Source of the DNA: Tangfeifania diversioriginum
GTDB taxonomy: Bacteria > Bacteroidota > Bacteroidia > Bacteroidales > Prolixibacteraceae
Length of the DNA: 64,000 nt
Assembly (NCBI GenBank): GCA_945873105.1
Contig: CAMCBW010000001.1
Coordinates: forward strand, 1-64,000
Reading direction: 5' to 3'
Shown here piece after piece: positions 14,479 through 46,791 of this stretch. The first letter of the stretch is position 1. Every line of letters begins with the position of its first letter. The translations under genes were made by a program, and so were the position numbers. Below the pieces are notes generated by a model that made no database searches, was not told the origin of the DNA, and saw nothing but the letters and a program-made list of their open reading frames with translations.

Positions 14479-14548
14479 AATGTGGAAAACTTATGGTAAA
14501 AGTAAAAATTTGCCAAAGTTTCCACATTTTCACATTTCCACATTTTCC
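14479..14548. repeat. Mosaic repeat element at the ddl 3' end
   Basis: Units of the type AATGTGGAAA/AATGTGAAA run back from within the end of ddl. The block at 14516-14528 (AAGTTTCCACATT) is inverted relative to 14479-14492 with one base inserted. The ddl stop codon (14530-14532) lies inside one unit. Confidence 0.7.
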
Positions 14549-15507
14549 TGAATAATCTCCGTCAGCAGATCCGTCAAATTCAATCCTGCCGCTTTCACCT
14601 GCTGTGGGATAAAACTGGTGGCGGTCATTCCGGGTACGGTATTGATCTCCAGAAAGAAAAAGGTATCCTCTTTGAGGATGTAATCCACCCTGACGATCCC
14701 TTTGCAATTGCACAGGTCATAGATATATGAGGAGAGCTCCTGTACTTTCAGGGTCAACTCCGTACTGATTCTGGCAGGAGTAATCTCTTCAGCCATGCCG
14801 GGAGTATATTTCGCCTCGTAGTCAAAAAATTCATTCTTGGGGATCACTTCGGTGACAGGCAATAGCAATTTCTTTGAACCAACTCTAACCACTCCGCAGG
14901 TAAACTCTTTTCCGTCAATGAATTGCTCGATAAGTATTTCCGAACTTTCCAGGAATGCTTTGTCGACTGCAGCTGTAAGATCCTCCTCTTTTTTTACTTT
15001 CGTGACCCCGAAACTGGATCCTCCGGCACTTGGCTTGACAAAGAGTGGCAGTGATAGCTGGTTCACCACTGCTGCAGGATTCCATTTTTCGCCCGCATGA
15101 AGCCGCAGTGAGCGGGCCATTGGGATCCCATACGATTGAAGGTACTTGTTACAAAAATTCTTGTTGAAGGTAAGAGCAGAAGATTGCACACCGCAGGAGG
15201 AGTAAGGGATTCCAAGCATTTCAAAATAGCCTTGCAGGTTGCCATCCTCTCCCGGTGTTCCGTGAATCATGATGTAGGCATACTCCAGTCTGACCGGTTT
15301 TCCATCCAGTACAAAGGAAAAGTCACCCTTGTCGATGGAGGCTATCTCCTTTTCACCATCCAGGACCTTCCACGCTCCATTCCGTATGGAGACCAGCCAG
15401 GGAGTAAAAAGGCTGCGATCGATGGCGCTGAATACATTGGCACTACTTTTTATGGAAACAACATATTCGGAGGAGTCTCCGCCGGCGACTATCGCGATAT
15501 TTCTCAT
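14530..15507 (-). CDS. ddl: D-alanine--D-alanine ligase
   Basis: A cytoplasmic ATP-grasp enzyme that joins two D-alanines for the peptidoglycan stem peptide. The 325 residues show the N-terminal GGDSSEYVVS loop, the ATP-grasp part with LPLFVKPSAGGSSFGVTKV, the FIDGKEFTCGV block, and the metal-binding EINTVPGMTATSFIPQQ near 285-300. It lies downstream of rluD and the PASTA gene on the same strand, a cell-wall grouping common in Bacteroidota. The last residues (ENVEM) and the stop codon are encoded by units of the repeat array that follows, so the C-terminus seems to have been rewritten by it. Confidence 0.96.
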   Translation of the reverse strand: MRNIAIVAGGDSSEYVVSIKSSANVFSAIDRSLFTPWLVSIRNGAWKVLDGEKEIASIDKGDFSFVLDGKPVRLEYAYIMIHGTPGEDGNLQGYFEMLGIPYSSCGVQSSALTFNKNFCNKYLQSYGIPMARSLRLHAGEKWNPAAVVNQLSLPLFVKPSAGGSSFGVTKVKKEEDLTAAVDKAFLESSEILIEQFIDGKEFTCGVVRVGSKKLLLPVTEVIPKNEFFDYEAKYTPGMAEEITPARISTELTLKVQELSSYIYDLCNCKGIVRVDYILKEDTFFFLEINTVPGMTATSFIPQQVKAAGLNLTDLLTEIIQENVEM

Positions 15508-15693
15508 AATGTGAAAACTAATGTGAAAATTGGGAAATTGGGAAATGTGAAAATTAATGTGAAAATTGGGAAATGTGAAAATAAAGAAATGTACCCAATG
15601 TCCAAAGTAAAATAAATTAAATAAGAATGTGAAGGCATTATTTATTATTTACTTCAAATCTTATTAATTTTCACATTTCCCAATTTCCACATT
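15508..15693. repeat. Mosaic inverted-repeat element filling the rluD-ddl spacer
   Basis: The spacer is built from units AATGTGAAAATTGGG and GGGAAATGTGAAAAT starting directly beside the ddl start codon. The arm 15556-15582 is nearly the reverse complement of 15667-15693 (27 bp, one mismatch region), separated by 84 AT-rich bases. The right arm ends 3 bases from the rluD stop codon. Confidence 0.85.
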
Positions 15694-15696
15694 TGT

Positions 15697-16758
15697 TCAT
15701 TCCCGGTTTACGACATAGCTTCGCCACTTTTCAACACAGGCTTCCATATCATCGGGTAGTTCGGAATCAAAGATCATCTCCTGGTGGGTTGTGGGGTGGA
15801 TAAATCCAAGTGTTTTGGCATGCAATGCCTGTCGGGGAAGCAGGGCAAAGCAATTCTCCACAAATTGCTTGTATTTGGCGAAGGTTGTCCCCTTCAAAAT
15901 TTTGTTCCCACCATACACCTCATCGTTGAAGAGCGGATGGCCGATCTCTTTCATGTGGACCCTGATCTGGTGGGTACGCCCTGTCTCCAGGGTGCACTCA
16001 ACCAGGTTCACATAACCCAGCCGCTCCAGGACCCTGTAATGGGTCACTGCTGGTTTGCCGTGGTCCCCGTTGGGGTAGACGGTAAAAACCTGGCGATCCT
16101 TGGTACTGCGCCCAATATTTCCCTCAATGGTGCCTGTGTCGGCGGCCAGGTTTCCCCACACCAATGCCACGTATTGCCTTTGGGTCGTTTTTCGAAAAAA
16201 CTGCATGGCCAGGTTGAGTTTGGCATGTTCTGTTTTAGCAACCAACAACAATCCTGAGGTATTCTTGTCTATGCGGTGTACCAATCCGGGTCTCGGATCG
16301 TCGCCTCCGTACAGGGGAAGTCCCATAAATCTGAAAGCCAAAGCATTGACAAGTGTTCCGCTGTAATTCCCGTGTCCAGGATGTACCACCAAACCCGGAG
16401 GTTTGTTAACTACCAGTAGCTCTTCATCCTCGTAAACGATGTTCAATGGAATATCCTCCGGAATGATTTTCAACTCCCTTCGTGGATAATCCATGACGAC
16501 AGTCACTTCATCGTTGGGCTTTACCCTGTAGTTGGATTTTACAGGCTTCCCATTGACCAGAATACTCTCAGCCTCTGCTGCCTGCTGGATACGGTTTCTG
16601 GAGGTTCCGAGAATGCGGTTGGATAGGAATTTATCGACCCGCATCAGCCCTTGACCAGGATCTGCTATAAAACGATGGTGTTCGAACTGTCCGGCCAGTT
16701 CTTCGTTGTCTTCGGGAAGATCTGTCTCCTCATCAAAAAAATCCTCTTTTTGGCTCAT
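15697..16758 (-). CDS. rluD: RluA-family 23S rRNA pseudouridine synthase (RluD-like)
   Basis: Isomerises uridines to pseudouridine in 23S rRNA, expected at the helix 69 sites for RluD. The 353 residues have an S4 RNA-binding domain (about 38-98, GLMRVDKFLSNRILGTSRNRIQ) and a catalytic domain with the signature RPGLVHRIDKNTSGLLLVAK, whose catalytic aspartate is residue 164. LETGRTHQIRVHMKEIGHPL is the second family motif. An acidic 35-residue extension precedes the S4 domain. The gene starts 17 bases after the PASTA gene, so they are probably cotranscribed. Confidence 0.93.
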   Translation of the reverse strand: MSQKEDFFDEETDLPEDNEELAGQFEHHRFIADPGQGLMRVDKFLSNRILGTSRNRIQQAAEAESILVNGKPVKSNYRVKPNDEVTVVMDYPRRELKIIPEDIPLNIVYEDEELLVVNKPPGLVVHPGHGNYSGTLVNALAFRFMGLPLYGGDDPRPGLVHRIDKNTSGLLLVAKTEHAKLNLAMQFFRKTTQRQYVALVWGNLAADTGTIEGNIGRSTKDRQVFTVYPNGDHGKPAVTHYRVLERLGYVNLVECTLETGRTHQIRVHMKEIGHPLFNDEVYGGNKILKGTTFAKYKQFVENCFALLPRQALHAKTLGFIHPTTHQEMIFDSELPDDMEACVEKWRSYVVNRE

Positions 16759-16775
16759 GGGCTGAAAGATACCAA

Positions 16776-17555
16776 TTATTCTTTTATTCTGGCCGAGAGA
16801 ACCAGGTTGATGGAACTTCCGGCCGGTACTACGATGGTAGAGTCGGCAACCGGAAACTGGCTGATCACAGTAGCTGATATTGAATCGGCATGGCTGTTCA
16901 CGGAACCATCGTAGACGACCGATCCGGTCTGCAGTTGCCGCTCATTGAGTATCACAAGGAGGTCGGCCATGGTCATCCCCAAAAGGTCTGGTACGAAGGT
17001 ATCATTGGCACTAAAGCTCTGCCCGACTACCAGGTCGACGGTTGAACCGGTATCCATGCGGGTCCCGGGAGGTATTGGTGCCCCGTTGTTTTTTTGTTCC
17101 AGCACAAGGTCATTGAATTCAGAGGGCCTAAATTCTATCCTGCCCACCAAAAAACCTTTGGATTCAAGCAAAACCCTGGCCTGACGAAGTGAGATATCGG
17201 TTACCTGCGGAACTATTTCCTGTCCAGGTACAGAGGTTACCAGTGTGAGGTAAATCTTTCTGCCTGATTTGATCCTGTGTCCCGGTAGCGGATTTTGGAT
17301 CAATATAGTCCCGGCTTTCTTGTCTGCTTTGTAGACTGAATCTTCCACTTCGAAACGCAGGTCCAGTTTTTTAGACGCCTGCCTGGCTTCTGAGATGGTC
17401 ATTCCGGTGAAATCGGGGATAGACAGGCTTTCTCCGCGGTGGGTATACAAGGAGAGGATCATCATGGTAATCCAGAGCAACACCAGGGTAAGGACTACTG
17501 CGGCCAGCAGGTGTTTTCTGAATAATTTACTGAGGAAGAATTCCTTAAGGGCCAT
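16776..17555 (-). CDS. PASTA-domain membrane protein
   Basis: A 259-residue protein with a short cytoplasmic tail, one membrane segment (about 17-37) and three extracytoplasmic PASTA repeats at about 44-106, 107-180 and 185-256. Each has the IPDFTGM or VPDLLGM opening typical of the fold that binds muropeptides or other wall components. No kinase or transpeptidase domain is attached, unlike PASTA kinases and PBPs. It is upstream of rluD and ddl in the same direction, the usual Bacteroidota arrangement, which suggests a role linked to the cell wall. The exact function is unknown. Confidence 0.85.
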   Translation of the reverse strand: MALKEFFLSKLFRKHLLAAVVLTLVLLWITMMILSLYTHRGESLSIPDFTGMTISEARQASKKLDLRFEVEDSVYKADKKAGTILIQNPLPGHRIKSGRKIYLTLVTSVPGQEIVPQVTDISLRQARVLLESKGFLVGRIEFRPSEFNDLVLEQKNNGAPIPPGTRMDTGSTVDLVVGQSFSANDTFVPDLLGMTMADLLVILNERQLQTGSVVYDGSVNSHADSISATVISQFPVADSTIVVPAGSSINLVLSARIKE

Positions 17556-17600
17556 AGGGGCAAGTTAAGATTGTTGGCTGTAAAATTAGGTTTTTTTCTT

Positions 17601-17718
17601 TAAGAAGTGCCTAAAGTGCACTAAAGTGCCTAATGTGCCTAAAGAAATTAGATCCTAATGTTGGGGGTCCGCAACTCTAGGCACATTAGGCACTTTAGCG
17701 CACTTTAGGCACTTCTTA
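17601..17718. repeat. 40-bp inverted repeat of AAGTGCCTA units at the mqnE 3' end
   Basis: The arm 17601-17640 is a tandem of 9-bp units (AAGTGCCTA and variants). Arm 17679-17718 is its reverse complement with one mismatch in 40 bases. The 38-base spacer holds GTCCGCAACTC at 17667-17677, immediately before the right arm. The mqnE stop codon (17705-17707) and its last codons (RSA) lie inside the right arm. The whole could form a very long hairpin in the mqnE transcript. Confidence 0.93.
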
Positions 17719-18829
17719 TTTCCCTGTAAAGGGTATCCCGCTCTACGGCGATGTAACCGGCACCTTCAATCATCTCGACCAGCTGAGCCGTGGTGGCAGT
17801 AGGCGCCTGTTCTTCGGCACCTGCCATGGAGTATATTTTGGTGGTATCGTCAATGGTTCCGTCCAGATCATCGACTCCAAAGGCCAGTGAGAGCTGGGCA
17901 ACCTGCTTTCCGATCATGGGCCAGTAAGCCTTCAGGTGTGGGATATTGTCAAGAAAAATGCGGGAGACCGCATAATTACGAAGATCTTCCACCGTTGTCT
18001 GTTCCTCAATGTGAGAAAACCGGTTGTTGTAATGACGGAATTTTAGCGGGATAAAGGCGTTGAATCCACTGGTCTCATCTTGCAGGCTTCGCAACCTGGT
18101 GAGGTGATCGATCCGTTGCGAATAGTCTTCCAGCAGTCCATAGAGCATGGTTGAATTGGTGGGGATTCCCAATTGGTGGGCGATGCGGTGTATGTTGAGC
18201 CAACCTTCGGATCCGGTCTTGTCGGGACAGATTTTAGACCGCAAGGTTTCGTCAAAGATTTCGGCTCCCCCTCCGGGCATGGAGACCAGTCCCGCCTCTT
18301 TCAGGAGCATTAACCCCTCCCTGATTCCCATGGAGGCAAAATTGCACATGGCATCTATCTCCACCGCCGTAAAAGCCTTGATCTGTACATCCGGCAGAAT
18401 CCTCTTTATTTCACGGAGCAGCTCTGCATAGAAATGCACATCCCTGTCGGGATGGACTCCTCCCACAACATGAATCTCCGTAATTCCGGAGCGTGAATGC
18501 TTTTCTGCCAGTTCAACCAGCTCGCTGATACCCAGCTCCCAGCAGCCTTCTTCCCCTTTTTTCCTACGGTAGGAGCAGAAAGCACAATGGTTGACGCAGA
18601 TGTTGGTGGGTTCAAGGTGGATGTTACGGTTGAAATAGACCTTTTTCCCATTGATCCTGTGGCGCACATGATCCGCCAAAACAGCCAAAAAAGGCAGTGA
18701 GCCTTCCCGGTAGAGGAGAATTCCCTCTTCGGGAGTGACGCGTTTGCCTGCAGCTACATTTTCTGCGACCTGAATTAATTTGTGGGAGATCCCTGTTTGA
18801 GAAAAGAGTGAAAATAGGGTGGCCGGCAT
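17705..18829 (-). CDS. mqnE: Aminodeoxyfutalosine synthase MqnE (radical SAM)
   Basis: A radical-SAM enzyme of the futalosine route to menaquinone. It joins the 3-enolpyruvyl benzoate product of MqnA to an adenosyl radical, giving aminodeoxyfutalosine. With the start at 18829 (MPATLFSLF) it has 374 residues. The iron-sulfur cluster cysteines are 78, 82 and 85 (NICVNHCAFCSYRR). DDLDGTIDDTTKIYSMAGAE and the C-terminal VERDTLYR fit MqnE better than MqnC. A 26-residue longer form is possible but lacks conserved features. No other mqn gene is nearby. The 3' end overlaps a long inverted repeat. Confidence 0.9.
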   Translation of the reverse strand: MPATLFSLFSQTGISHKLIQVAENVAAGKRVTPEEGILLYREGSLPFLAVLADHVRHRINGKKVYFNRNIHLEPTNICVNHCAFCSYRRKKGEEGCWELGISELVELAEKHSRSGITEIHVVGGVHPDRDVHFYAELLREIKRILPDVQIKAFTAVEIDAMCNFASMGIREGLMLLKEAGLVSMPGGGAEIFDETLRSKICPDKTGSEGWLNIHRIAHQLGIPTNSTMLYGLLEDYSQRIDHLTRLRSLQDETSGFNAFIPLKFRHYNNRFSHIEEQTTVEDLRNYAVSRIFLDNIPHLKAYWPMIGKQVAQLSLAFGVDDLDGTIDDTTKIYSMAGAEEQAPTATTAQLVEMIEGAGYIAVERDTLYREIRSA

Positions 18830-18859
18830 ATTGATTTGGATTTTCGATTTTGGACAAGG

Positions 18860-18867
18860 CAAAGTTA
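18860..18867 (-). promoter_or_regulatory. Candidate -7 box of mqnE
   Basis: TAACTTTG on the minus strand, 30 bases upstream of the chosen ATG. It supports the shorter MqnE start, since the longer form would begin upstream of this box. Confidence 0.45.
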
Positions 18868-18907
18868 GGTTTTTTGTCAGAATTTTAATCGGTTTACACC
18901 AAAGCAC

Positions 18908-18938
18908 AAAAGGTAAAGAATCCAGTTCTTTACCTTTT
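18908..18938 (-). terminator. Intrinsic terminator of rpmH
   Basis: A perfect 13-bp stem (AAAAGGTAAAGAA with its complement at 18926-18938) and a 5-base loop, 27 bases after the rpmH stop codon. Confidence 0.75.
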
Positions 18939-18965
18939 GCCTAACACCTTGTACGTGCAGGAAAA

Positions 18966-19124
18966 TTATCTTTTGTGACGTGGCTCGTCTGAAACACTTA
19001 GTTTGTGACGACCTTTCGCACGACGGGCGTTCAAAACGCGACGGCCATTGGACGTAGACATTCTTTCACGAAACCCGTGCTTGTTTTTTCTTTTTCTGTT
19101 GGATGGTTGAAATGTTCTTTTCAT
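18966..19124 (-). CDS. rpmH: 50S ribosomal protein L34
   Basis: A 52-residue, highly basic ribosomal protein. The translation [20 protein letters not shown] followed by [20 protein letters not shown] is unmistakable L34. A short tail ([12 protein letters not shown]) extends beyond the usual 44-46 residues, as in other Bacteroidota. A well-formed promoter lies at 19176-19207 and a terminator at 18908-18938, so it is its own transcription unit. rnpA does not follow it, unlike in many other bacteria. Confidence 0.97.
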
Positions 19125-19175
19125 CTCTGTGAAATATTATATTTTCGACTTTTTATTTCTCTTATTTAAGGAGTG

Positions 19176-19207
19176 CAAAAATAGTTTTTTTTTAATTAAT
19201 GTCCAAA
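19176..19207 (-). promoter_or_regulatory. Promoter of rpmH
   Basis: On the minus strand TTTG (19204-19207), a 20-base spacer and TATTTTTG (19176-19183) match the Bacteroidota consensus. The leader to the ATG is about 45 bases. Confidence 0.75.
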
Positions 19208-19247
19208 CAATTGGAGAAATAGTGGTAAAATTTATATTTTGTATAAA

Positions 19248-19871
19248 TTACCTGACTGGCAGATAGATCACCTTCTTGGTGTCAAAGAAGGACTCCCCAA
19301 ATAATTTTGAGATCTCAAATATTTCCACAGAGGCTTTGAATGCTTTGATTTCATCTTCAAAATCGCCTCCTTTCAAGTAGATGATCCCGTTAGGGAGAAC
19401 ATTCTTTTGGATTGGCGAGATGTTTTTCCGGACCATCTGTACGAACTCTGGAAATGCAGTAACTGCCCGGCTAAGGACAAAATCAAAGCGTTCCCGGATC
19501 TCCTGAACCCTGTTTTTCCTGGCAGAGACATTGGTCAAGCCGAGTTGACTAGCCACCTCCTGCACAACCAGTATCTTTTTACCAATCGAATCGATCAGGG
19601 TGAAATGGCATTCAGGATAGAGTATGGCCAGTGGAATCCCTGGAAACCCTCCTCCCGTTCCAACATCCAGCAGGGTAGTTCCTGCCTGGAACCGGATGAT
19701 TTTTGCGATGGCCAGGGAGTGAAGTACATGGCGAAGATAGAGTTCGTCGATGTCCTTTCTGGAAATGACGTTGATCTTTTCGTTCCATTCGTGGTACAAT
19801 CCTTCCAGCCTCTCAAACTGACTGATTTGAAGAGGGGATAAGTCGGGAAAGTATTTGATTAGAAGCTTCAA
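19248..19871 (-). CDS. rsmG: 16S rRNA (guanine527-N7)-methyltransferase RsmG
   Basis: Methylates G527 in 16S rRNA using S-adenosylmethionine. The 207 residues carry the GidB fold with the SAM-binding loop LLDVGTGGGFPGIPLAI near 67-83 and the early family block WNEKINVISRKDIDELYLRH. The start codon is TTG at 19869-19871: a TAA lies immediately upstream, and the residues that follow (MKLLIKYFPDLSP) match the usual family N-terminus, so no better start exists. A repeat array begins within three bases of this TTG and may have replaced the original upstream sequence. Confidence 0.95.
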   Translation of the reverse strand: MKLLIKYFPDLSPLQISQFERLEGLYHEWNEKINVISRKDIDELYLRHVLHSLAIAKIIRFQAGTTLLDVGTGGGFPGIPLAILYPECHFTLIDSIGKKILVVQEVASQLGLTNVSARKNRVQEIRERFDFVLSRAVTAFPEFVQMVRKNISPIQKNVLPNGIIYLKGGDFEDEIKAFKASVEIFEISKLFGESFFDTKKVIYLPVR

Positions 19872-20019
19872 TTAATGTGAAAATGTGAAAATGGACAGTG
19901 TGATTGGGGCAAAATTGCCCAGATGTGATTTTCTCCCAATTTATTCATTGTTATGTTGCTGATTGTAACAATCATCGATTACCTAAATTTTCACATTTTC
20001 ACATTTCCCAATTTCCACA
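19872..20019. repeat. Mosaic repeat element filling the sigma factor-rsmG spacer
   Basis: Arms 19874-19892 and 19987-20005 are perfect 19-bp reverse complements built from AATGTGAAA units. The right side continues with TTGGGAAATGTG-type units up to the sigma-factor stop codon. The array touches the rsmG start on one side and the stop codon on the other, so the whole 148-base spacer is the element. Confidence 0.85.
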
Positions 20020-20628
20020 TTACTTCGCGATCTCATTGTTCTTCAGCAATTCAAAAAGCATTTCACGGGAACGAAAGAGCTGTACTTTAACAGTGCCCAG
20101 CGGCAGATCCAGTTCTTTGGCAATTTCGTCGTAAGAGTACTCCTGAAAGTAGCGCAGTTCCAATAATTTCCTGTAGCGGGGCTTGAGCTTGGCTACCATT
20201 CGGCGCAGGATCTGTGAGTTTTGGTCACGGATAATGCTCTCTTCCGGATTGTGCCCTTCAGCCCTGGCATTGTAATTGTAGTCACCACTAACCTGTCTGT
20301 CGCCGGAAGTAGGTTCCAGTGGAACAGTAATGGCTCTTTTCTTTCGCATAAAATCAATGGCATTGTTGGAAGCTATGCGGAAAAGCCAGGTACTAAAGGC
20401 ATATTGGGGGGTGTATTGGCGAATATTGGTAAAGGCTTTTCCAAATGCTTCGATGGTAAGGTCCTCTGCATCGGTCCGGTTATTGACCATTTTAAGCAGC
20501 ATGAAGTAGATGGTGTCCTTGTAACGGCGCATCAGATCGGCGTAAGCTTTTTCGCTTCCGTTCCGAGCCGCTTCCACCAGTTCGATGTCGCGTTTCGCAT
20601 TTCCGGATATGCCTTGGCTTATTTCCAT
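20020..20628 (-). CDS. RNA polymerase ECF-type sigma-70 factor
   Basis: A 202-residue sigma factor with region 2 at about 30-100 (YKDTIYFMLLKMVNNRTDAE then AFSTWLFRIASNNAIDFMRK) and region 4 at about 140-195 (LLELRYFQEYSYDEIAKELD). An unusually long polar linker of about 40 residues joins the two. There is no region 1.1 or 3, as in ECF factors. No anti-sigma gene adjoins it. The start overlaps the end of the upstream glycosyltransferase by 10 bases, which indicates cotranscription. Its regulon is unknown. The stop codon is the first base block of a repeat array. Confidence 0.9.
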   Translation of the reverse strand: MEISQGISGNAKRDIELVEAARNGSEKAYADLMRRYKDTIYFMLLKMVNNRTDAEDLTIEAFGKAFTNIRQYTPQYAFSTWLFRIASNNAIDFMRKKRAITVPLEPTSGDRQVSGDYNYNARAEGHNPEESIIRDQNSQILRRMVAKLKPRYRKLLELRYFQEYSYDEIAKELDLPLGTVKVQLFRSREMLFELLKNNEIAK

Positions 20629-21755: not shown

Positions 21756-21868
21756 AGTTCTAACAAAAGTCCTCAAAAATACACAATGGGATGGTAAGTA
21801 CCTATTTTTACCATTTTTTTTTACCAATGGAGCGGAAAATCACCGAAATGATATTTTGCTATTATGAC

Positions 21869-21876
21869 TATCTTTG
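21869..21876 (+). promoter_or_regulatory. Candidate -7 box of the tgt operon
   Basis: TATCTTTG 18 bases upstream of the tgt ATG, implying a leader of only about ten bases. No good -33 element is visible. Confidence 0.45.
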
Positions 21877-21894
21877 TGCCCTGAAATTTATTGA

Positions 21895-23025: not shown

Positions 23026-23027
23026 AG

Positions 23028-25854: not shown

Positions 25855-26193
25855 ATGGAAGAAAAGAAACCAAAATATGAGGTATTCGTTGTGAATACAG
25901 CGCAATACTATACCCTTCATACCAAGAAATTCGGATTGCGTAAACGGTGGGAACCGGTTAAGCCGAATGAGGTGCGCTCGTTCATCCCTGGTACGATCCT
26001 TGAAGTTTATGTCAAAGTAGGACAGGAAGTTCCGGCTGGAGAAAAACTGCTCAAATATGAAGCAATGAAGATGCAGACCATCCTGGAAATGCCATTTACC
26101 GGATTGGTGAAGGAGGTTCTTGTGTCGGAAGGCGACAAAGTCCGAAAAGATCAGTTGATGATTCTGCTGGAAGAGTATGAGGAGGTTAACTAA
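25855..26193 (+). CDS. Biotin carboxyl carrier protein of an acyl-CoA carboxylase
   Basis: A 112-residue biotinyl-domain protein. The biotin-accepting lysine is residue 72 in the canonical YEAMKMQ motif, placed in a domain starting near RSFIPGTILEVYVKVGQEVP. The 40-residue N-terminal part is basic and is probably the contact surface for the carboxyltransferase encoded just upstream. No biotin carboxylase gene is present nearby. The stop codon TAA (26191-26193) is also the first bases of a TAAAGTGAC tandem array. Confidence 0.93.
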   Translation: MEEKKPKYEVFVVNTAQYYTLHTKKFGLRKRWEPVKPNEVRSFIPGTILEVYVKVGQEVPAGEKLLKYEAMKMQTILEMPFTGLVKEVLVSEGDKVRKDQLMILLEEYEEVN

Positions 26194-26245
26194 AGTGACT
26201 AAAGTGAGCTAGAGTGACTAAAGTGATCTAAAGTTAAGCTAGATT
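26190..26245. repeat. TAAAGTGAC tandem array after the biotin carrier gene
   Basis: About five imperfect 9-bp units (CTAAAGTGA and variants) start on the stop codon of the biotin carrier gene. The unit shares CTAAAGTG with the inverted repeat at the mqnE 3' end. No matching inverted arm was seen. Confidence 0.75.
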
Positions 26246-26267
26246 AAAATAGAGCTTCACGGATATT

Positions 26268-26332
26268 AAAGTTTCCAAAGTTTTAGTTGCGGGCGATCAT
26301 AGCCCAAAACGTAAACTTTGGAAATTTTTTTT
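26268..26332. terminator. Bidirectional hairpin between convergent genes
   Basis: AAAGTTTCCAAAGTTT (from 26268) pairs imperfectly with AAACTTTGGAAATTT (26313-26327). An inner GGGC/GCCC stem and a T run follow. It lies between the carrier protein gene and the convergent glycosyltransferase. Confidence 0.65.
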
Positions 26333-36797: not shown

Positions 36798-36805
36798 ATA
36801 AAGAA

Positions 36806-36951
36806 TAAAGGTTAAAGGAGAAAGGTTAAAGGTTAAAGTAAAGGGGATGGGGAACTCCAAAAATTCCAGTATATAAAATCCTATGATCTTGTTAACCCCT
36901 CCAACATTGGGAGTCCAAACCTTTAACCTTTAACCTTTAACCTTTCTCCTC
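36806..36951. repeat. Inverted GGTTAAA arrays between convergent genes
   Basis: Left array 36806-36845 and right array 36918-36951 are tandems of 7-bp units (GGTTAAA). A perfect 22-bp inverted repeat joins 36817-36838 and 36928-36949. The spacer contains ATTGGGAGTCCAAAC just before the right array. The aminotransferase stop codon (36937-36939) and its final residues REEKG are read from the right array. Confidence 0.9.
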
Positions 36952-38422: not shown

Positions 38423-38425
38423 GGG

Positions 38426-39430: not shown

Positions 39431-39434
39431 GCAA

Positions 39435-40205: not shown

Positions 40206-40219
40206 AAGGCGCTTTTCTG

Positions 40220-40227
40220 CAAAATTA
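40220..40227 (-). promoter_or_regulatory. Candidate -7 box of the amn operon
   Basis: TAATTTTG on the minus strand, 15 bases upstream of the amn ATG, so any leader would be very short. Confidence 0.4.
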
Positions 40228-40292
40228 CCTGCTTTTTGTATTAAGTTGGCTGAATTGGAAATAAAAATTTAGTTTTAGAGAGATTTTCACCA

Positions 40293-40742: not shown

Positions 40743-40907
40743 CCATAGTTCCTCTTTTGAGGAGGATGGTAGACGATACTTTCATTGATATTGTACAGCA
40801 TAGCTTTTACAAGACAGATGGGAAAGTAAGAAATTGGAGAAAAAATTTGGATGGTAGCTACAGTTTGTTTAACTTTCTGTTTTTCAACCAATCCTAAAAT
40901 TACATTC

Positions 40908-41492
40908 ATGAAAACTAAACTTGCGCTCATCGTAGTTTTTCTGTTCTGCCAAACCTTTTTATTCCCACTTTCTGCAGGAAAACCTGCCAGTGGCGAGCCC
41001 GTACCAGGAGCAGAAATTTTCGTTGAACTGGAGCCAGATGACCAGCCTATCATGGCAACTGCTTCCAAAAATGGAACCTTCACCTTTGAAAATTTGAAGG
41101 CGGGGATTTACCATGTAGTCGTTCGTTTGCCAGAGAATCCGAAAGAGGCCTATACCAACAAGGAGGCCATCAAAAGTCCAAATCTTAAGAAATCTGGTTT
41201 TTACCATAAAAAGGGAGAATACTTTTTGAGCAAGAATCGTGGTCTTTTTGTCATCAAACTGGAGGATTTCAAAAAGGTCAATGAAGATGCCATCAAGGTC
41301 TCCTCCAAAAAGATGGGCAGCAAAGAGAGCAAAACGGATGCAGCGATTCTCGATTTTCAGGTAACAGGGAAGGGTGGTAAAATCGTGATCTCTTTGGAAT
41401 CAGTGAAACCCAAAGAGTACAATGCACGAAATACCAGTGCAATTTTAACTGGACCTTACGGAGCCTCTCTTTCCAATCTTGAAGACAATTAG
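40908..41492 (+). CDS. Secreted protein with a carboxypeptidase-regulatory-like domain
   Basis: A 194-residue exported protein. The signal peptide MKTKLALIVVFLFCQTFLFP ends near SAG. The first domain (about 25-80) looks like a beta-sandwich of the CarboxypepD_reg type: GEPVPGAEIFVELEPDD, then NGTFTFENLKAGIYHVVVR. The remainder is lysine-rich with GKIVISLESVKPKEYN and is unassigned. It converges with the GNAT gene. Start at 40908; an in-frame ATG at 40851 is upstream of the signal. Function unknown. Confidence 0.65.
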   Translation: MKTKLALIVVFLFCQTFLFPLSAGKPASGEPVPGAEIFVELEPDDQPIMATASKNGTFTFENLKAGIYHVVVRLPENPKEAYTNKEAIKSPNLKKSGFYHKKGEYFLSKNRGLFVIKLEDFKKVNEDAIKVSSKKMGSKESKTDAAILDFQVTGKGGKIVISLESVKPKEYNARNTSAILTGPYGASLSNLEDN

Positions 41493-41546
41493 TCAGAAAT
41501 TGATATTCTTTATAAATGAGGTAAGAATGTAGAAGCTTAAATTTTG

Positions 41547-42077
41547 CTAAATCTTATTGATCAACTGCATCAAATTCTCATCCTTCCATTCGCCGCCATC
41601 CCTGATCCACTCCCTCTTGGTGCCAGCAAGTTTGAATCCTGCATTGGCAAACAACTTCATGCTAATTAGGTTGTCGGTAAGGATGTTGGCATATATTTGG
41701 TGAAGTTGCAGCTTTTCAAAACAATAGCGGATCATCAGCTGCAAAGCGGCAGTGGCATAACCTTTGGTCCGATCTTCCAGACGATGGATCAATATGCCCA
41801 AACCGACCCGTGCATGTAGCGGGTCAAAATCGAACAGATCGATGGCTCCGATTGTTTTTCCCTCCCGGGTGGTGATCATCATCCGCAGTTGCTGGTTCGC
41901 GTAAAGTCCCTTGTCCGAATTTTGAATGTAAAGCGCCAGGAGGTGTTTGGAAAAGGGGGCAATGGTATGGCTGATGGTCCAGACCTCCTCGGCATTCTCC
42001 CAGGCATACAACAAATCAATGTCTTCCGGTTCCAGGGCGCGCAGCGCGATAAGTTCATCTTGCAGGTAAAGATTCAT
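41547..42077 (-). CDS. GNAT-family N-acetyltransferase
   Basis: A 176-residue acetyltransferase of the RimJ/SpeG-like GNAT_3 group. LIALRALEPEDIDLLYAWEN is the N-terminal block, GKTIGAIDLFDFDPLHARVG holds the central strands, and LEDRTKGYATAALQLMIRYC carries the acetyl-CoA-binding R/Q-x-x-G-x-A loop. NLISMKLFANAGFKLAGTKR closes the domain. The acceptor may be an amine or a protein N-terminus; this is not resolved. It follows recR after 7 bases on the same strand. Confidence 0.88.
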   Translation of the reverse strand: MNLYLQDELIALRALEPEDIDLLYAWENAEEVWTISHTIAPFSKHLLALYIQNSDKGLYANQQLRMMITTREGKTIGAIDLFDFDPLHARVGLGILIHRLEDRTKGYATAALQLMIRYCFEKLQLHQIYANILTDNLISMKLFANAGFKLAGTKREWIRDGGEWKDENLMQLINKI

Positions 42078-42084
42078 GGCAGTG

Positions 42085-42708
42085 TCAGGAGTTGAATTGT
42101 TCGTACAACAACCGGTTCACAATCGAGCGTCCCAGTGTTAATTCATCGGTGTACTCCAGCTCGTCTCCAACAGAGACACCCCTTGCGAGTGTGGTAATAC
42201 GAATATTGCTGTTTTTCAGCTTTTTGAATAGGTAAAAGTTGGTGCTGTCTCCCTCCATGGTCGTGCTCAGGGCAAATATGATCTCACGGATGCTCCCCTT
42301 TTCTACCCTGTTGAGCAGGGAATCTATCTCCAGGTCAGCGGGACCAATTCCATCCATGGGTGAGATGATCCCCCCCAAAACATGGTAAACCCCGCGAAAC
42401 TGCTGCGTGTTTTCAATGGACATCACATCCCGGATGCTCTCTACCACACAAACCAAACCATGGTCGCGCGAAGGGTTGCTGCAAATGTTGCACACCTCCG
42501 TATCTGAGATGTTGTAGCAATGTTGGCAATGTTTCACCTCATCCCTGAGCTGGGTCATGGTTCCACTGAAGCGGTGCACCTCCTCCGGCTCCTTCTTGAG
42601 CAGGTGCAGAACGAGCCGCAAAGCGGTTTTTTTCCCGATGCCCGGCAATTTTGCAAATTCGGCTACGGCGTTCTCAAGCAGTTTGGAGGGAAAGTGGTCG
42701 GCGTTCAT
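42085..42708 (-). CDS. recR: Recombination protein RecR
   Basis: A 207-residue RecFOR-pathway protein that helps load RecA on gapped DNA. The helix-hairpin-helix [19 protein letters not shown], the four-cysteine zinc site [16 protein letters not shown] and the Toprim domain with [20 protein letters not shown] are all present. The start at 42708 ([15 protein letters not shown]) fits the family; ATGs 2 and 10 codons upstream are possible. It is first in a two-gene unit with the GNAT gene. Confidence 0.95.
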
Positions 42709-42865
42709 CGGCATAAAATATCTTCCCAAAAGTAGCAACTACCTGCGATATATCTATTCCCCCATTTCAATATTTCTTTTCAGAGAACAAATAGGGGAAC
42801 TATATTTAAAATCAAGGTTAAACCAAATAGGGTGTAAGAAGTCAAAGGGAAGTAACTAAAAAAAT

Positions 42866-43252
42866 ATGGATATGATTAAAAAACTTTTTCTGGTTTCATC
42901 CTTGATTTGGATGATGGTTATGACTGTAGCCGCTCAAGGCGGAATGCAGAATATGACTCCTGAGGACATGGCCAAACGGACGTCCGAAATGATCAAAAAA
43001 ACAACAGGTTGCGATGCCGCAGTCGGTACTAAAGTTGATGCTATCTGCCTGAAATATGCAAAAGAGATGGCAGCTGTTCGTGAAAAATATGCCGACCGTG
43101 AGGCAAGACGCGAGCCAACCAAGGTTCTCAGGGACAAGCAGGATGTTGAGTTGAAAGCAGCCTTGACTGCCGACCAGTATGCCAAATACATGGCAGCGAT
43201 GGAAGAGCGTCGCAAACAAATGCAAAACGGCGGTGGCGGCGGCCCTCGCTAG
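42866..43252 (+). CDS. Small secreted methionine- and lysine-rich protein
   Basis: A 128-residue protein with a signal peptide (MIKKLFLVSSLIWMMVMTVA) cut near AQ. The mature part is helical: a TPEDMAKRTSEMIKKT helix, then KYADREARREPTKVLRDKQD, ending in a glycine-rich tail (QNGGGGGPR). The layout recalls small Spy/CpxP-like or DUF4890-like periplasmic proteins of Bacteroidota, but I cannot assign a family firmly. It is monocistronic and ends at a terminator (43269-43308). Start at 42866, or at the ATG two codons later. The function is unknown. Confidence 0.65.
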   Translation: MDMIKKLFLVSSLIWMMVMTVAAQGGMQNMTPEDMAKRTSEMIKKTTGCDAAVGTKVDAICLKYAKEMAAVREKYADREARREPTKVLRDKQDVELKAALTADQYAKYMAAMEERRKQMQNGGGGGPR

Positions 43253-43268
43253 TCGTTGTAAAATAAAC

Positions 43269-43308
43269 AAAAAGTCCTGGATTTCAATAAATTCAGGACT
43301 TTTTATTT
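43269..43308 (+). terminator. Intrinsic terminator of the small secreted protein gene
   Basis: Stem AAAAGTCCTG with its complement CAGGACTTTT, about a 12-base loop and a T-rich tail. Confidence 0.85.
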
Positions 43309-43319
43309 GAACAGAACCA

Positions 43320-43535
43320 GGGGAAACGGGGAAACGGAGAAACGGGGAAACGGGGAAACGGGGAAACGGGGAAACGGAGAAGCAGAGAAACGGAGAAACG
43401 GAGAAACAGAGAAACGGGGAAGATGATATTTGAGGTAGATCGGACCAACTAAATTTTCACTGATAGCATCGCCGTTTCAGTTCTTCTCCGTTTCTCCGTT
43501 TCTCCGTTTCAGTTTTTCTCCGTTTCACTGTTTCC
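43320..43535. repeat. Inverted GAAACGGGG/GAAACGGAG arrays
   Basis: About eleven 9-bp units at 43320-43420 face a reverse-complement array at 43472-43535. The spacer contains GATCGGACCAACT. The cdd stop codon (43525-43527) lies in the right array, in GAAACAGTGAAACGG read on the minus strand. Confidence 0.9.
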
Positions 43536-44013
43536 TTAGGTCCTCCTTCTTGAACCGAAACGGCAAAAGTGTGTCAATCCCATTCACTACCGTGATGGCT
43601 GAACTCCCATCCAGGATGATTTCGATGGGGGATCCCGACAGATCTTCATATTCAGCCATAACTTGCCGGCAACTTCCGCATGGCTTCGCAATTTCAGTGG
43701 AGGAGGGATCATTGGAAATGGTCGAAACGGCGATGGATTGAACGGCAATGTTGGGGTACCTGGAGGAGGCATAGAAAAGTGCTGTTCGTTCGGCGCAAAG
43801 ACCGGAAGGATAAGCCGCGTTTTCCTGGTTGTTGCCGGAAATCACCTCCCCGTTGGCCAACAATACTGCTGCTCCTACCCTGTATCCCGAATAGGGAGAA
43901 TAGGCTCGCATGGCTGCCTCCCTGGCCAGCAGAATGAGTTTTTGCGAAAGCTCGGGCAACTCTGCCAGTGTTTCGTAGCTTTTTACTCTATAGTTGAGGT
44001 ATATCTCCTTCAT
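43525..44013 (-). CDS. cdd: Cytidine deaminase
   Basis: Converts cytidine and deoxycytidine to uridine forms in pyrimidine salvage. The 162 residues have the zinc site: Cys73 with catalytic Glu75 in GLCAERTALF, and Cys112 and Cys115 in KPCGSCRQV. The substrate-binding block is YSPYSGYRVGAAVLLANGE. An N-terminal extension of about 20 residues precedes the domain. Its last two codons (KQ) and its stop are part of a 9-bp tandem array. Confidence 0.95.
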   Translation of the reverse strand: MKEIYLNYRVKSYETLAELPELSQKLILLAREAAMRAYSPYSGYRVGAAVLLANGEVISGNNQENAAYPSGLCAERTALFYASSRYPNIAVQSIAVSTISNDPSSTEIAKPCGSCRQVMAEYEDLSGSPIEIILDGSSAITVVNGIDTLLPFRFKKEDLRKQ

Positions 44014-44089
44014 GGTGATCCGATTAATTCAATCTCAAAAGTAAACATATTCCTTCATTTAACAGAGGGTTACAATTGACCTAAATTTT

Positions 44090-44097
44090 TATCTTTG
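44090..44097 (+). promoter_or_regulatory. Candidate -7 box of the glucosaminidase gene
   Basis: TATCTTTG 10 bases before the first ATG. Transcription could start next to the coding region, giving an almost leaderless mRNA. Confidence 0.45.
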
Positions 44098-44107
44098 GTG
44101 CAAACAA

Positions 44108-45085
44108 ATGCCGATGTTGAATTTTTGCAGACTGTGTATCCTATTCTGTTTTGGAGTTGCTTTTGCAGGCAATCTCTTTGCTGCATCACCTGTCAGACAG
44201 ACCAGGCAGCAATACATCGACAAGTTTGCCAAAATAGCGGTCCAGGAGATGATCGAGTTCCACATTCCGGCCAGTATCACCATGGCACAAGCCTGTCTCG
44301 AATCGTCAGACGGAAATTCTGAACTAACCCGGAAATCCAACAACCACTTTGGCATCAAATGCAAGAGCAATTGGACCGGACCATCGGTCAGACACCATGA
44401 TGATGCGGCCAACGAATGTTTTAGAAAATACCAAACCGCAGAAGAGTCGTTCAAGGACCACTCCCTTTTTCTAACCACCAACACCCGTTACGGCTTTCTT
44501 TTTGCCTACGATATCAGGGACTTTAAACAGTGGGCTTACGGTCTTAAGAAGGCTGGATATGCCACAGATCCTGCTTACCCTGGAAAACTGATAAAAATAA
44601 TCGAGGATTTTAAGCTGTATGAACTGGATCAGCTGGATTGGAAATATGTCAAGGCGCCCGAGCAAAAGAAGAAACGATTCTCCCTCTTCGGCTTCCTGAA
44701 GAAAAAGGCTCCGGAGAAGGAACTTGCTGTAGCCTCCGGCTTCCTACCCCGCAAGGTGGAGCGTAGAAATGGCAAAAAGGCGATCATTGCCATCGAAGGG
44801 GACGATTATGCCCGCATTGCAGAAGAGATGAAGCTGAAGGATTGGCAGATTTACCAATACAACGATGCCCAATCCGGGGATGTACCGGAGACCGGTGAGC
44901 CAGTCTTCCTGCAATTGAAAAGGTCGAAGGCTCCGAGAGGCAATGACACACACATTGTTCAACAGGGAGAAACCCTGCGGTCCATTTCGCAGTGGTATGG
45001 TGTTCAGCTTCAGTCGTTGAGAAAAATGAACCGTTTGGAAGACAACGAGGAGGCTGTGGCCGGTACCACCATTTCGCTGAGGTAG
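44108..45085 (+). CDS. Exported glucosaminidase-domain protein with C-terminal LysM
   Basis: A 325-residue peptidoglycan hydrolase. After a signal peptide (ending near LFAAS) comes a glucosaminidase domain (about 30-175). It contains IPASITMAQACLESSDGNSE with the catalytic glutamate, and NNHFGIKC plus RYGFLFAYDIRDFKQWAYG. A lysine-rich linker follows, then a LysM domain (about 280-325, HIVQQGETLRSISQWYGVQL). It should cleave the glycan chain in the periplasm, perhaps in cell separation. It is divergent from cdd. Start at 44108 or two codons later. Confidence 0.9.
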   Translation: MPMLNFCRLCILFCFGVAFAGNLFAASPVRQTRQQYIDKFAKIAVQEMIEFHIPASITMAQACLESSDGNSELTRKSNNHFGIKCKSNWTGPSVRHHDDAANECFRKYQTAEESFKDHSLFLTTNTRYGFLFAYDIRDFKQWAYGLKKAGYATDPAYPGKLIKIIEDFKLYELDQLDWKYVKAPEQKKKRFSLFGFLKKKAPEKELAVASGFLPRKVERRNGKKAIIAIEGDDYARIAEEMKLKDWQIYQYNDAQSGDVPETGEPVFLQLKRSKAPRGNDTHIVQQGETLRSISQWYGVQLQSLRKMNRLEDNEEAVAGTTISLR

Positions 45086-45182
45086 GAATGCGCTTAATTT
45101 CACGGAGGAAGGTTGGATTTCGCAGATTACCCCCACCAACCACTAATTACACAAATTACAAGAATGGAGAAATAAAAATATT

Positions 45183-45272
45183 CCCCGTTTCTTCGTTTCC
45201 CTGTTTCATCGGCTCTCCCCCAGTCCCCCAGTCCCTCAGTCCCCCAGTCCCCCAGTCCCTCCGTCCCTCCGT
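45183..45272. repeat. GTTTCTTC and CAGTCCCC tandem arrays after fmt
   Basis: A short GAAAC-type array (45183-45208, related to the one beside cdd) is followed by about seven CAGTCCCC-type units (45216-45272). No inverted partner was found. The arrays lie in the 194-base gap between the convergent LysM gene and fmt, ending 8 bases from the fmt stop. Confidence 0.75.
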
Positions 45273-45279
45273 CATTTTC

Positions 45280-46248
45280 CTAAAGAGCCCTGTACGCCGC
45301 TATCTGCGAAAATCCCCGCAGAAACTCCTCGATTCCCATCCGTTTCTTTCCGGCGAGTTGCAGATCGGTGAGCCACAAATATCCATCCGGACAAGCAATC
45401 TTGGCCCACTTTTTTTGATCCGACAGGATGGTTCCGGGGGTATGGCTATGGCTGGAGGTTTCGGTTTTGGTGTGGAAGATCTTGAGTGTTATTGGTTCTT
45501 TGGAGGGGGAGGTTAATTCAGTCCAGGCAGCAGGGTAGGGACTCAACCCCCTTATTTTGTTGTAGTTTTTTTGCAGGCCAAGATTCCAGTCTATCCTGCA
45601 ATCTTCCTTGAAGATCTTGGGGGCATGTAGCTTTTCAGGTTCAATTTCGAGCTTGTTCTGGTCGATGGGAATCGCAGTACCATCTGCCAGTGCATCGACC
45701 GTTTTCAATACCAGTCCGGCCCCAATGCCCATCAGCTGATCGTGCAGCTCGCCGACAGTTTGGTCGGGAGCAATGGTTACTTTCTCGAAGAAAAGGATGT
45801 TCCCGGTATCGATCTCCTGCTTTAGCAAGAAGGTGGTGACTCCGCTCTCGCTGTCCCCATTCATGATGGCCCAATTGAGCGGTGCGGCTCCGCGGTAGCG
45901 GGGCAGGAGCGACCCATGCAGGTTGAATGTCCCAAGGGGGGGCATCTTCCAAACAGCTTCGGGCAACATGCGGAATGCCACAATGATCTGCAGATCGGCT
46001 TTCAGGGCAGCCAATTCTGCCAGGAAGGCCTCGTTTTTCAGTTTTTCGGGCTGCAATACGGGGATCATCGAAACCTGCGCATAACTCTTCACTGCCGACT
46101 GTTGCATTTTCTGTCCCCGTCCGGCGGGTTTGTCGGGTGCCGTCACGACTCCAACCACGTTGTAGCCATGCTCAACCAGGGCTGAGAGACTAGCCACTGC
46201 AAAATCGGGCGTTCCCATAAAAACTATTCGTACTTCCTTCCCGGTCAT
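45280..46248 (-). CDS. fmt: Methionyl-tRNA formyltransferase
   Basis: Formylates the initiator Met-tRNA with 10-formyltetrahydrofolate. The 322 residues start RIVFMGTPDFAVASLSALVE. Catalytic Asn109 and His111 lie in FNLHGSLLPRYRGAAPLNWA and Asp147 in QEIDTGNILF. The C-terminal OB-like tRNA-binding domain follows about residue 205. The length is normal. A GGATTTT repeat array begins three bases upstream of the start codon, so the promoter must lie within or beyond the repeat element. Confidence 0.96.
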   Translation of the reverse strand: MTGKEVRIVFMGTPDFAVASLSALVEHGYNVVGVVTAPDKPAGRGQKMQQSAVKSYAQVSMIPVLQPEKLKNEAFLAELAALKADLQIIVAFRMLPEAVWKMPPLGTFNLHGSLLPRYRGAAPLNWAIMNGDSESGVTTFLLKQEIDTGNILFFEKVTIAPDQTVGELHDQLMGIGAGLVLKTVDALADGTAIPIDQNKLEIEPEKLHAPKIFKEDCRIDWNLGLQKNYNKIRGLSPYPAAWTELTSPSKEPITLKIFHTKTETSSHSHTPGTILSDQKKWAKIACPDGYLWLTDLQLAGKKRMGIEEFLRGFSQIAAYRAL

Positions 46249-46250
46249 TG

Positions 46251-46414
46251 CAAGAAAATTTTGGATTTTGGATTTTGGATTTTGGATTTTTGCAATGGTT
46301 CAATATTGTTGACAGATCGTCTGTTCATAATTTTGAATAAGAATAATTGTAAGACAAATGTGGCAAAGTTATAAGTCCGCAACTCGAAAATCCAAAATCC
46401 AAAATCGAAAATTG
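46251..46414. repeat. Inverted GGATTTT arrays between the DUF5522 gene and fmt
   Basis: Left array 46251-46291 (7-bp unit GGATTTT) faces the reverse complement at 46386-46406, giving a 20-bp inverted repeat. GTCCGCAACTC (46375-46385) precedes the right arm directly, exactly as in the mqnE element. Confidence 0.88.
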
Positions 46415-46435
46415 CATTGAATTGTACGATGCTCT

Positions 46436-46618
46436 TTACCTGAGGTTTGTGTTCCCTTTTATCGCTTTTGGGTGATAGGGACAATGCTTGCATCCGTTCC
46501 CACAGCAATATCCCCGCTCGGCCAGGTATTTTTCGGTCATGATCCGGTAACCTTCCGGAGAAAGATAATAATCAACTCCCCTTACCAGCTCATCTCCGTA
46601 TTTTATCTCTTCCTCCAT
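46436..46618 (-). CDS. DUF5522-type small cysteine protein
   Basis: A 60-residue protein with the block GVDYYLSPEGYRIMTEKYLA and the cysteine motif RGYCCGNGCKHCPYHP. The spacing CC-x3-C-x2-C suggests a metal or iron-sulfur site. The short size and motif match the DUF5522 family, whose role is unknown to me. It lies between fmt and ribBA on the same strand, with repeat arrays on both sides. Confidence 0.8.
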   Translation of the reverse strand: MEEEIKYGDELVRGVDYYLSPEGYRIMTEKYLAERGYCCGNGCKHCPYHPKAIKGNTNLR

Positions 46619-46629
46619 CCTATTAATTA

Positions 46630-46791
46630 GTTTGAAATGTTTGAAATGTTTGAAATGTTTGAAATGTTTGAAATGTTTGAAATGTTTGAAATGTTTGAAA
46701 TGTTTACTCTATAAACAATTTTTAAACCCTTTAAACCCTTTAAACCCTTTAAACCCTTCAAACCCTTCAAACCCTTCAAACAGTTTTTTGC
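46630..46791. repeat. GTTTGAAAT array followed by AAACCCTTT/AAACCCTTC array
   Basis: Eight exact copies of the 9-bp unit GTTTGAAAT (46630-46701) are followed, 22 bases on, by about six copies of AAACCCTTY (46724-46777). The two share the inverted core GTTTGAA/TTCAAAC. The element lies between the ribBA stop and the DUF5522 start. An open frame across the left array would encode KCL repeats and is not a gene. Confidence 0.9.

Follow-up and report, generated by a model that had tools for sequence, protein, structure and literature searches.

Intergenic arrays of short tandem units in Tangfeifania diversioriginum: probable gene-less representatives of a widespread type of short mobile element related to intervening sequences

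The window, the whole stretch of 64,000 nucleotides analyzed here (positions 1–64,000 of contig C1 of genome G000, Tangfeifania diversioriginum; 5.36 Mb in 99 contigs), contains spacers between protein genes that carry arrays of short tandem units. We propose that these spacers probably hold gene-less copies belonging to a widespread class of short mobile elements related to the intervening sequences (IVS) of rRNA genes. Fuller copies have two inverted arrays around a small gene encoding either a four-helix-bundle (4HB) protein or a GxxExxY protein, and the unit follows the gene. The evidence that ties anatomy, cargo and unit together is good; how the protein binds, in what stoichiometry, and by what chemistry the elements move is put forward further below as a hypothesis.

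The original prediction described tandem short units in ten spacers of the window, and Tandem Repeats Finder (TRF) confirmed intergenic arrays of 7–9 bp units in all ten; no array reached the same threshold in Markov-resampled versions of 10 contigs (one version per contig). Across 463 kb of G000, 63 of 71 merged arrays (period 5–10, score ≥40) are intergenic, in sequence of which intergenic DNA makes up 9%; periods at this score run from 7 to 10, and none is 5 or 6. No period 7–10 array scoring ≥40 lies in the window outside 14.5–46.8 kb, which agrees, for this window only, with the claim that the SusCD regions have none. An inverted partner had been claimed for most loci, and seven spacers (15508, 17601, 19872, 36806, 43320, 46251 and 46630) do contain one of the same unit family. 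The 14479 spacer has merely a fragment, the 26190 spacer none of its own unit family, and the 45183 spacer has two adjacent arrays, both pyrimidine-oriented and of different families. The individual arrays and arms are as follows.

14508–14548, minus strand: array of the AATGTGRAA family (period 8–9), with the purine strand on minus and a partial partner near 14479
15507–15592, plus strand: left arm of AATGTGAAA/AATTGGGAA units in the RluD-Ddl spacer (arrays and orthologous spacers compared)
15667–15694, minus strand: right arm, partner of 15507–15592
17605–17644, plus strand: left arm of the AAGTGCCTA family, period 9, 4.3 copies, in the MqnC-PASTA spacer
17674–17714, minus strand: right arm, partner of 17605–17644, 4.4 copies
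19874–19893, plus strand: left arm of the AATGTGAAA family in the GidB-sigma factor spacer
19987–20021, minus strand: right arm, partner of 19874–19893, 4.4 copies, overlapping the sigma-factor stop codon
26189–26234, plus strand: single array of CTAAAGTGA (AAGTGCCTA family), overlapping the end of a biotin/lipoyl-domain gene
36799–36838, plus strand: left arm of the TAAAGGT family, period 7
36918–36945, minus strand: right arm, AACCTTT in 4.0 copies, partner of 36799–36838
43320–43421, plus strand: left arm of the GGGGAAAC family, 12.8 copies, adjoining a terminator-like hairpin with a T run
43472–43534, minus strand: right arm, partner of 43320–43421
45181–45211, minus strand: short array of the GAAACGGG family, without inverted partner
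45216–45267, minus strand: array of TCCCCCAG (GACTGGGG family), 6.5 copies, without inverted partner
46258–46290, plus strand: left arm of the ATTTTGG family, period 7
46387–46412, minus strand: right arm (AAAATCC), partner of 46258–46290
46630–46705, plus strand: left arm of the GTTTGAAAT family, 8.4 copies, whose 4HB-bearing counterpart is locus L262
46721–46781, minus strand: right arm (TTTAAACCC), 6.8 copies, partner of 46630–46705

The idea of one architecture with many unit sequences is supported by these data. The further claim that the units are locus-specific did not hold: a survey of two G000 contigs and contigs of same-genus species revealed about ten families dispersed through the genus, and the AATGTGRAAATGTGRA pattern alone has 195 matches in G000. 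Recurrent families are AATGTGRAA/AATTGGRAA, AAGTGCCTA/GTGAACTA, AAGGNTA, GAAACGGG, GATTTTSG, GTTTGAAAT, GGGACTGG, GAGTTAT and TTAGCTA, joined in other species by TAATGTGC and CACAGAG. The original prediction had named the same units at unrelated loci of relatives as evidence against itself, and this was found in part, since the same families turn up at unrelated loci in different species.

The loops of some relatives' elements contain a small open reading frame (ORF), which profile searches identify as a four helix bundle protein (TIGR02436, PF05635) or a GxxExxY protein (TIGR04256, PF13366). In G000, six of seven PF05635 matches pass the Pfam cut-off and all six are flanked by inverted arrays; the seventh is weak and lies in a longer ORF without arrays. 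A wider test covered 116 loci, 112 of which have a 4HB gene by a custom profile (117 genes), and L262 was found by Pfam only. Within the genus, the inverted-array score exceeded the best of 20 shuffles at 45 of the 50 testable 4HB genes (five were skipped for short flanks); across family and phylum, where the tested genes are among the best-scoring loci, it did so at 42 of 60 (two skipped). Shuffles and control ORFs served as controls, a mismatched-loci control being unusable with near-duplicate loci. Only 5 of 75 control ORFs of 90–180 aa from ten other genomes scored above shuffles, and 4 of 68 small ORFs of the G000 contigs exceeded the best of 10. TRF periods near 4HB genes are mostly 7 and 8 (56 and 21 arrays). 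Each window family has a genus counterpart enclosing a 4HB gene: AATGTGRAA at L072, AAGTGCCTA at L074, AAGGNTA at L076 and L077, GAAACGG at L260, GACTGGGG at L263 and others, GATTTT at L075 and GTTTGAAAT at L262. The window copies themselves have no 4HB gene. The original prediction was incomplete here: fuller copies carry a gene, and the unit follows it.

The unit family follows the lineage of the 4HB protein. We used 44 of the 55 genus 4HB proteins, those with paired arms (10 were excluded for insufficient flank, protein length or arm score, and 1 was a duplicate), and their arms form 14 unit groups. On a protein tree of 42 rows with 12 shared unit labels, 14 changes are needed (minimum 11), compared with a mean of 28.7 and a minimum of 25 in 300 label shuffles. 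Arm similarity is correlated with protein identity (Mantel r 0.61 overall and 0.48 in pairs ≤70% identical), and none of 5000 permutations was as high in either case. Adjacent clades bear related units; therefore, unit and protein drift together, and the copies within one element stay alike. Such concerted drift resembles that of plasmid iterons and Rep proteins.

The second cargo shows the same arrangement with its own units. All six PF13366 matches of G000 lie between inverted arrays, although some are weak or odd: L084 scores 10.5, the units of L082 are CAGGAT, and additional hairpin arms occur at L081 and L083. A cross-phyla set, the best 80 of 579 confirmed loci from one genome-contig scan, includes by record titles Bacteroidota, Ignavibacteria, Acidobacteria, Anaerolineae, Alpha- and Betaproteobacteria, Cyanobacteria, Planctomycetota, Verrucomicrobia, Hydrogenedentota and others; 76 loci in this set have both flanks, and 57 of them score above the best of 20 shuffles. 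In these 76 plus the six own loci (n=82), tandem CRCNRAG cores 8–12 bp apart point inward on at least one side at 67 loci and on both sides at 45, compared with none in one shuffle of each locus and 2 of 63 around 4HB genes. Inward runs have two (44), three (44) or four (24) cores and never more, and TRF periods near these genes are mostly 8, 9 and 10 (26, 48 and 37 arrays). The AlphaFold model of GxxExxY (predicted local distance difference test, pLDDT, 94.8) finds LHK-Exo, lambda exonuclease and SSO0001 as its nearest Foldseek neighbors, with probabilities of 0.97–1.00 for the first six rows and E-values of 1.5e-3 or weaker (none ≤1e-3). The protein has both the fold and the D...ExK residues of PD-(D/E)XK nucleases, in line with the Pfam name PDDEXK_3; D67, E77 and K79 are invariant in 33 GxxExxY proteins. 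As a predicted nuclease, it could itself cut.

We then compared unit abundance with the presence of a cognate 4HB gene in eight same-genus genomes (G000–G007), allowing up to one mismatch and, for AATGTGRAAATGTGRA, counting overlaps. TAATGTGCTAATGTGC, a pair of TAATGTGC units, has 233 matches in G007, 60 in G006, 32 in G005 and 0 to 2 in the five others, and 4HB genes with the TAATGTGC unit were typed only in G007, G006 and G005 (L292, L293; L271; L272), L271 of G006 having one stop codon. Matches to AATGTGRAAATGTGRA, the AATGTGRAA pair, number 195 in G000, 156 in G002, 124 in G004, 92 in G006, 55 in G007, 16 in G003, 1 in G005 and 0 in G001. Cognate genes without stops occur in G000 (L072), G002 (L288) and G006 (L283); that of G007 (L305) has two stops and that of G004 (L309), inside AATGTGRAA arrays, is truncated. 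No AATGTGRAA cognate was found in G003, G005 or G001.

Orthologous spacers differ in whether, and in what form, they are occupied. For the sigma-GidB spacer (window 19872; comparison without G005), only 4, 6 and 28 bp separate the alignment ends in G003, G006 and G001, which are empty; G000, G004 and G002 have 148, 169 and 199 bp, occupied by AATGTG elements without a gene, and G007 has 479 bp, in which TAATGTGC arms accompany an open 4HB gene. The RluD-Ddl spacer has AATGTGAAA arrays in G000, AAGGATA arrays in G004 and G003, TAATATGC with a full 4HB gene in G005, TAATGTGC with a shortened 4HB gene in G006 (remnant E 3.5e-7) and no array in G001. The full gene of G005 and the shortened one of G006, within like arrays, represent decay. 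In G003, alignment ends lie about 20 and 30 bp apart at the spacers equivalent to 36806 and 45183. The MqnC-PASTA spacer of G002 (contig C230, 864 bp), which has AAGTGCCTA arms elsewhere, contains two small ORFs that by eye are antitoxin- and PIN-domain-like.

Taken together, an element has two inverted ends, each a row of tandem units, typically four to five of 7–9 bp or two to four CRCNRAG units of 9–10 bp, and a full copy encloses one small gene, 4HB for the former and GxxExxY for the latter. A multimer of the encoded protein may read the row, with roughly one subunit per unit, and may join both ends; the element would spread to, and persist in, intergenic DNA beside gene ends, and the protein would act in trans on gene-less copies. 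The gene-bearing parents encode 4HB or GxxExxY and not a known transposase; movement of 4HB elements would involve a catalytic partner. The closest solved 4HB relative, 2rld, has five chains; see also the title of Lin et al. in the reference list of PMC3936711. Among 137 intergenic arrays from nine contigs, our anatomy set, median copy numbers are 4.6, 4.5 and 4.4 at periods 7, 8 and 9 (n=38, 35 and 48), while median arm length grows from 32 to 36 and 40 bp; period 10 has a median of 3.55 copies (n=16). In all, 65 of the 137 have 4.0–5.0 copies, and longer arrays are also present. This peak is not an effect of the cut-off, because a score of 36 needs only about 18 matched bases, that is, 2 to 2.6 copies.

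With belief and doubt nearly balanced, and doubt slightly the heavier, we tentatively extend this to a transposase-less class of mobile elements that, judged by record titles, spans at least eight phyla. A ring-forming protein would count units, five for a pentameric 4HB and up to four for the GxxExxY nuclease, and protein and unit would co-evolve like key and lock. One system could then lie behind the cyanobacterial heptamers, the G-rich heptamers of Xanthomonas, the paired sites of Geobacter, TAACTGA arrays and rRNA IVS, and arms alone may spread, with no conserved interior. If true, two common protein families (four helix bundle and GxxExxY) would gain a concrete role, several unexplained intergenic repeat families of different phyla would be parts of one system, and the question of how IVS elements move would become directly testable.

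A number of observations weigh against the mobile-element interpretation or its mechanistic details. Nothing above shuffles was seen at 18 of the 60 family and phylum 4HB genes, only 27 of which score ≥14, nor at 19 of the 76 GxxExxY loci from the best 80 of 579, and CRCNRAG runs point outward at 30 of 82 GxxExxY loci. Expanded arms are common in the genus (≥9 copies in 21 of 91 arrays), and "four" is just a ceiling for GxxExxY because runs of two and three cores outnumber runs of four. The congruence of protein and unit could stem from co-inheritance without binding. Of the cognate genes in the trans comparison, two contain stop codons that break them and a third is truncated. Among 84 spacers with arrays, a single one retains a significant 4HB remnant. 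No movement was observed and no target duplication defined, the relatives compared being too distant for one. Moreover, among 14 genomes (12–463 kb each), array density is not correlated with the number of 4HB genes (Spearman 0.37, p 0.19) and is correlated with that of GxxExxY genes only at an uncorrected p of 0.045 (Spearman 0.54). Six other Bacteroidota with 5–15 4HB genes have 0–2.5 arrays per 100 kb, and G017, which lacks a 4HB gene, reaches 7.5 per 100 kb, of period 11 (40 kb samples); four species of this genus have 6.9–30, and high density is confined to it among the genomes sampled.

The loops pose a further difficulty. Among 32 paired elements of the same family, only 3 of 496 loop pairs are similar (E 1e-3), and the window loop at 19894–19986 is found a single time in the genome. 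Such dissimilarity would not be expected if whole elements were copied and pasted. Either the loops of old elements drift while the arms are kept, or what spreads is the arms, with no fixed interior. The suggestion of a generating process rather than copies of one element therefore survives in part: it is favored by the unrelated loops and opposed by the few recurrent families that keep step with a protein.

The alternative that fares best, although we consider it unlikely, is that the arrays are sites of a chromosomal regulator or nucleoid system, that the small proteins are regulators encoded beside their own sites, and that recombination spread them. A near-fixed unit number and the protein-unit match would suit any sequence-reading protein, and Aklujkar et al. 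(2009; PMC2700814) proposed binding by unidentified global regulators or IHF/HU for paired sites of Geobacter metallireducens. However, the gene lies between both arms at the 45 of 50 genus loci noted above, and syntenic sites are empty in relatives. The arrays also hug gene ends, with a predicted end within 10 bp of 43 of the 73 arrays on the left and 38 of the 64 on the right; divergent spacers are under-used (4 of 48 array spacers versus 45 of 247, own contigs). The TAATGTGC elements of G005–G007 likewise abut or overlap the stop codons of neighboring ORFs (e.g., L316, L319 and L325).

Less probable again is that the arrays are terminators or mRNA-stabilizing hairpins selected at gene ends and renewed by slippage and template switching between arms. 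In its favor, left-end arrays are purine-rich on the plus strand (56 of 71, two at exactly 0.5 set aside) and right-end arrays pyrimidine-rich (46 of 64; Fisher p 2.6e-9), and convergent spacers are over-represented (14 of 48 array spacers versus 38 of 247). The predicted folding into long hairpins was also borne out in part, since four of six folded window stretches form strong hairpins from their own arms (z −13.1 for 17605–17714, −10.0 for 46630–46779, −5.4 for 19874–20021 and −3.8 for 36806–36945). However, 45181–45275 does not fold (z +0.46), and 26190–26330 folds strongly via a separate hairpin, TTTCCAAAGTTT, and not via its array. Unpaired arrays exist, some equivalent spacers of relatives are array-free, and a separate terminator-like hairpin adjoins the 43.3 kb arrays, as another does in the equivalent G003 spacer. 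Slippage would leave unexplained a unit common to loci and species in step with a protein. The hairpin of the 26190 spacer is a non-tandem inverted repeat (TTTCCAAAGTTT...AAACTTTGGAAA, 26257–26325), and a similar one occurs in G004 and G006.

A purely mutational process, in which local duplication and quasi-palindrome repair write arrays de novo at each locus, appears slightly more improbable still. It would account for arms that share a unit around unrelated loops and for some long, perfect arrays, but not for the small number of families, each found at many sites, that vary between species along with the resident protein. Periods 5 and 6 are missing at score 40 in the own contigs, the unit number is near constant, and the protein-unit congruence (tree and Mantel) already speaks against it.

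Finally, ordinary miniature inverted-repeat transposable elements (MITEs) moved by an unrelated transposase such as Y1 are very improbable, although 13 of the 15 genomes searched, G000 among them, have Y1 genes, and terminal inverted repeats of the MITE kind are present at 7 of 10 window spacers: loops are not common to copies, so that full-length homologous copies are missing, and a unit array lies near just 1 of 10 Y1 loci examined, several of which have hairpins like repetitive extragenic palindromes (REPs) instead. Y1 transposases of the REP-associated tyrosine transposase (RAYT) type are the usual partners of REPs. We accordingly rejected Y1 as the carrier, and the claim that the arrays are not classical REPs stands. 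Three of nine Y1 loci exceeded shuffles, through REP-like hairpins; at L249–L258, several Y1 genes are flanked by short REP-type hairpins distinct from unit arrays.

Returning to the mobile-element interpretation, the arrays can be compared with known systems. Also as originally stated, they are not CRISPRs, the units being 7–10 bp long and without spacers; CRISPR repeats measure 20–50 bp, alternate with unique spacers and lie beside cas genes. The 23S rRNA IVS are described with hairpin ends, a loop holding S23/23S_rRNA_IVP (PF05635) and a sporadic distribution (PMC4990558, PMC11270868, as far as seen). The class described here shares with them hairpin ends around a gene of the same S23/four-helix-bundle family and sporadic occurrence; it differs in that its ends consist of tandem units whose copy number is nearly constant, its units match the protein lineage and there is a second cargo family, GxxExxY, with its own units. 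IVS are inserted inside an rRNA gene and cut out by RNase III, whereas the window elements are intergenic, between protein genes, and by analogy would work like IVS rather than be IVS.

Among other repeats, classes 1–3 of Geobacter metallireducens comprise 3–5 tandem 7–8-mers in opposite-strand pairs at variable distance, and the consensus of class 2, TCTCCGTS, nearly matches the reverse complement of a CRCNRAG-type unit; the parts seen of that account describe binding of unidentified regulators or IHF/HU, with no cargo gene or cross-phylum link (PMC2700814). The GGGAATC repeats of Xanthomonas are heptamers, mostly of four units and mostly intergenic, with 70 and 75 convergent inverted pairs, and are treated, in the portion seen, as G-quadruplex sequences without a protein partner (PMC4692102). 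TAACTGA repeats are intergenic heptamer arrays in several phyla, absent from syntenic relatives; in the text available they have a single unit, a proposed post-transcriptional regulatory role and no partner gene (PMC4679880). Among the open-license papers listed, consulted mostly as titles and abstract openings, we found no link of 4HB or GxxExxY to tandem-unit arrays, which does not imply absence from print.

Beyond Bacteroidota, a 4HB relative occurs in 25 plasmid records, mostly of cyanobacteria. All 12 plasmid 4HB genes examined (11 from cyanobacteria, 1 from Treponema) lie between inverted arrays of period 7 that outscore the best of 50 shuffles, and several arms have exactly 4.7 copies, i.e., five cores. 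Heptamer repeats of cyanobacteria go by the name of short tandemly repeated repetitive (STRR) sequences. One of them, csR4 of Nostoc (ATTGCGAATTG; PMC2408588), is contained in the AATTGCG arms around the Nostoc plasmid 4HB genes L330 and L331, which have like neighbors and are probably one insertion; in the part of that source seen, the cyanobacterial repeats have no partner gene. At L329 (Anabaena cylindrica plasmid pANACY.01) and L333 (a plasmid of Nostoc sp. TCL26-01), a 4HB gene with inverted heptamer arrays lies between cas2 and cas1. Eighteen four-helix-bundle genes have been counted in cas loci (PMC3936711, seen in part), and such genes may be insertions. At L335, a 4HB gene with arrays lies between genes annotated DrmD and PglX.

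Some minor features of the arms and spacers were also observed. A GGA(S)TC box shared at the inner arm edge was tried as a common motif and set aside as too weak, with 8 of 137 arrays compared with 1 at outer edges (shuffles: mean 2.0, maximum 8). It takes the form of a GGACTCC-like box some bases within the arm at the inner edges of AAGTGCCTA and AAGGNTA arms in G000, G004, G006 and G007, and AAGAACG lies near the inner arm edges of six arrays; either is possibly a conserved subterminal motif, though statistically weak. Between the two elements of the fmt-ribBA spacer, at about 46420–46620, there is a short stretch on the minus strand that resembles a coding sequence and, by eye, is similar in G003.

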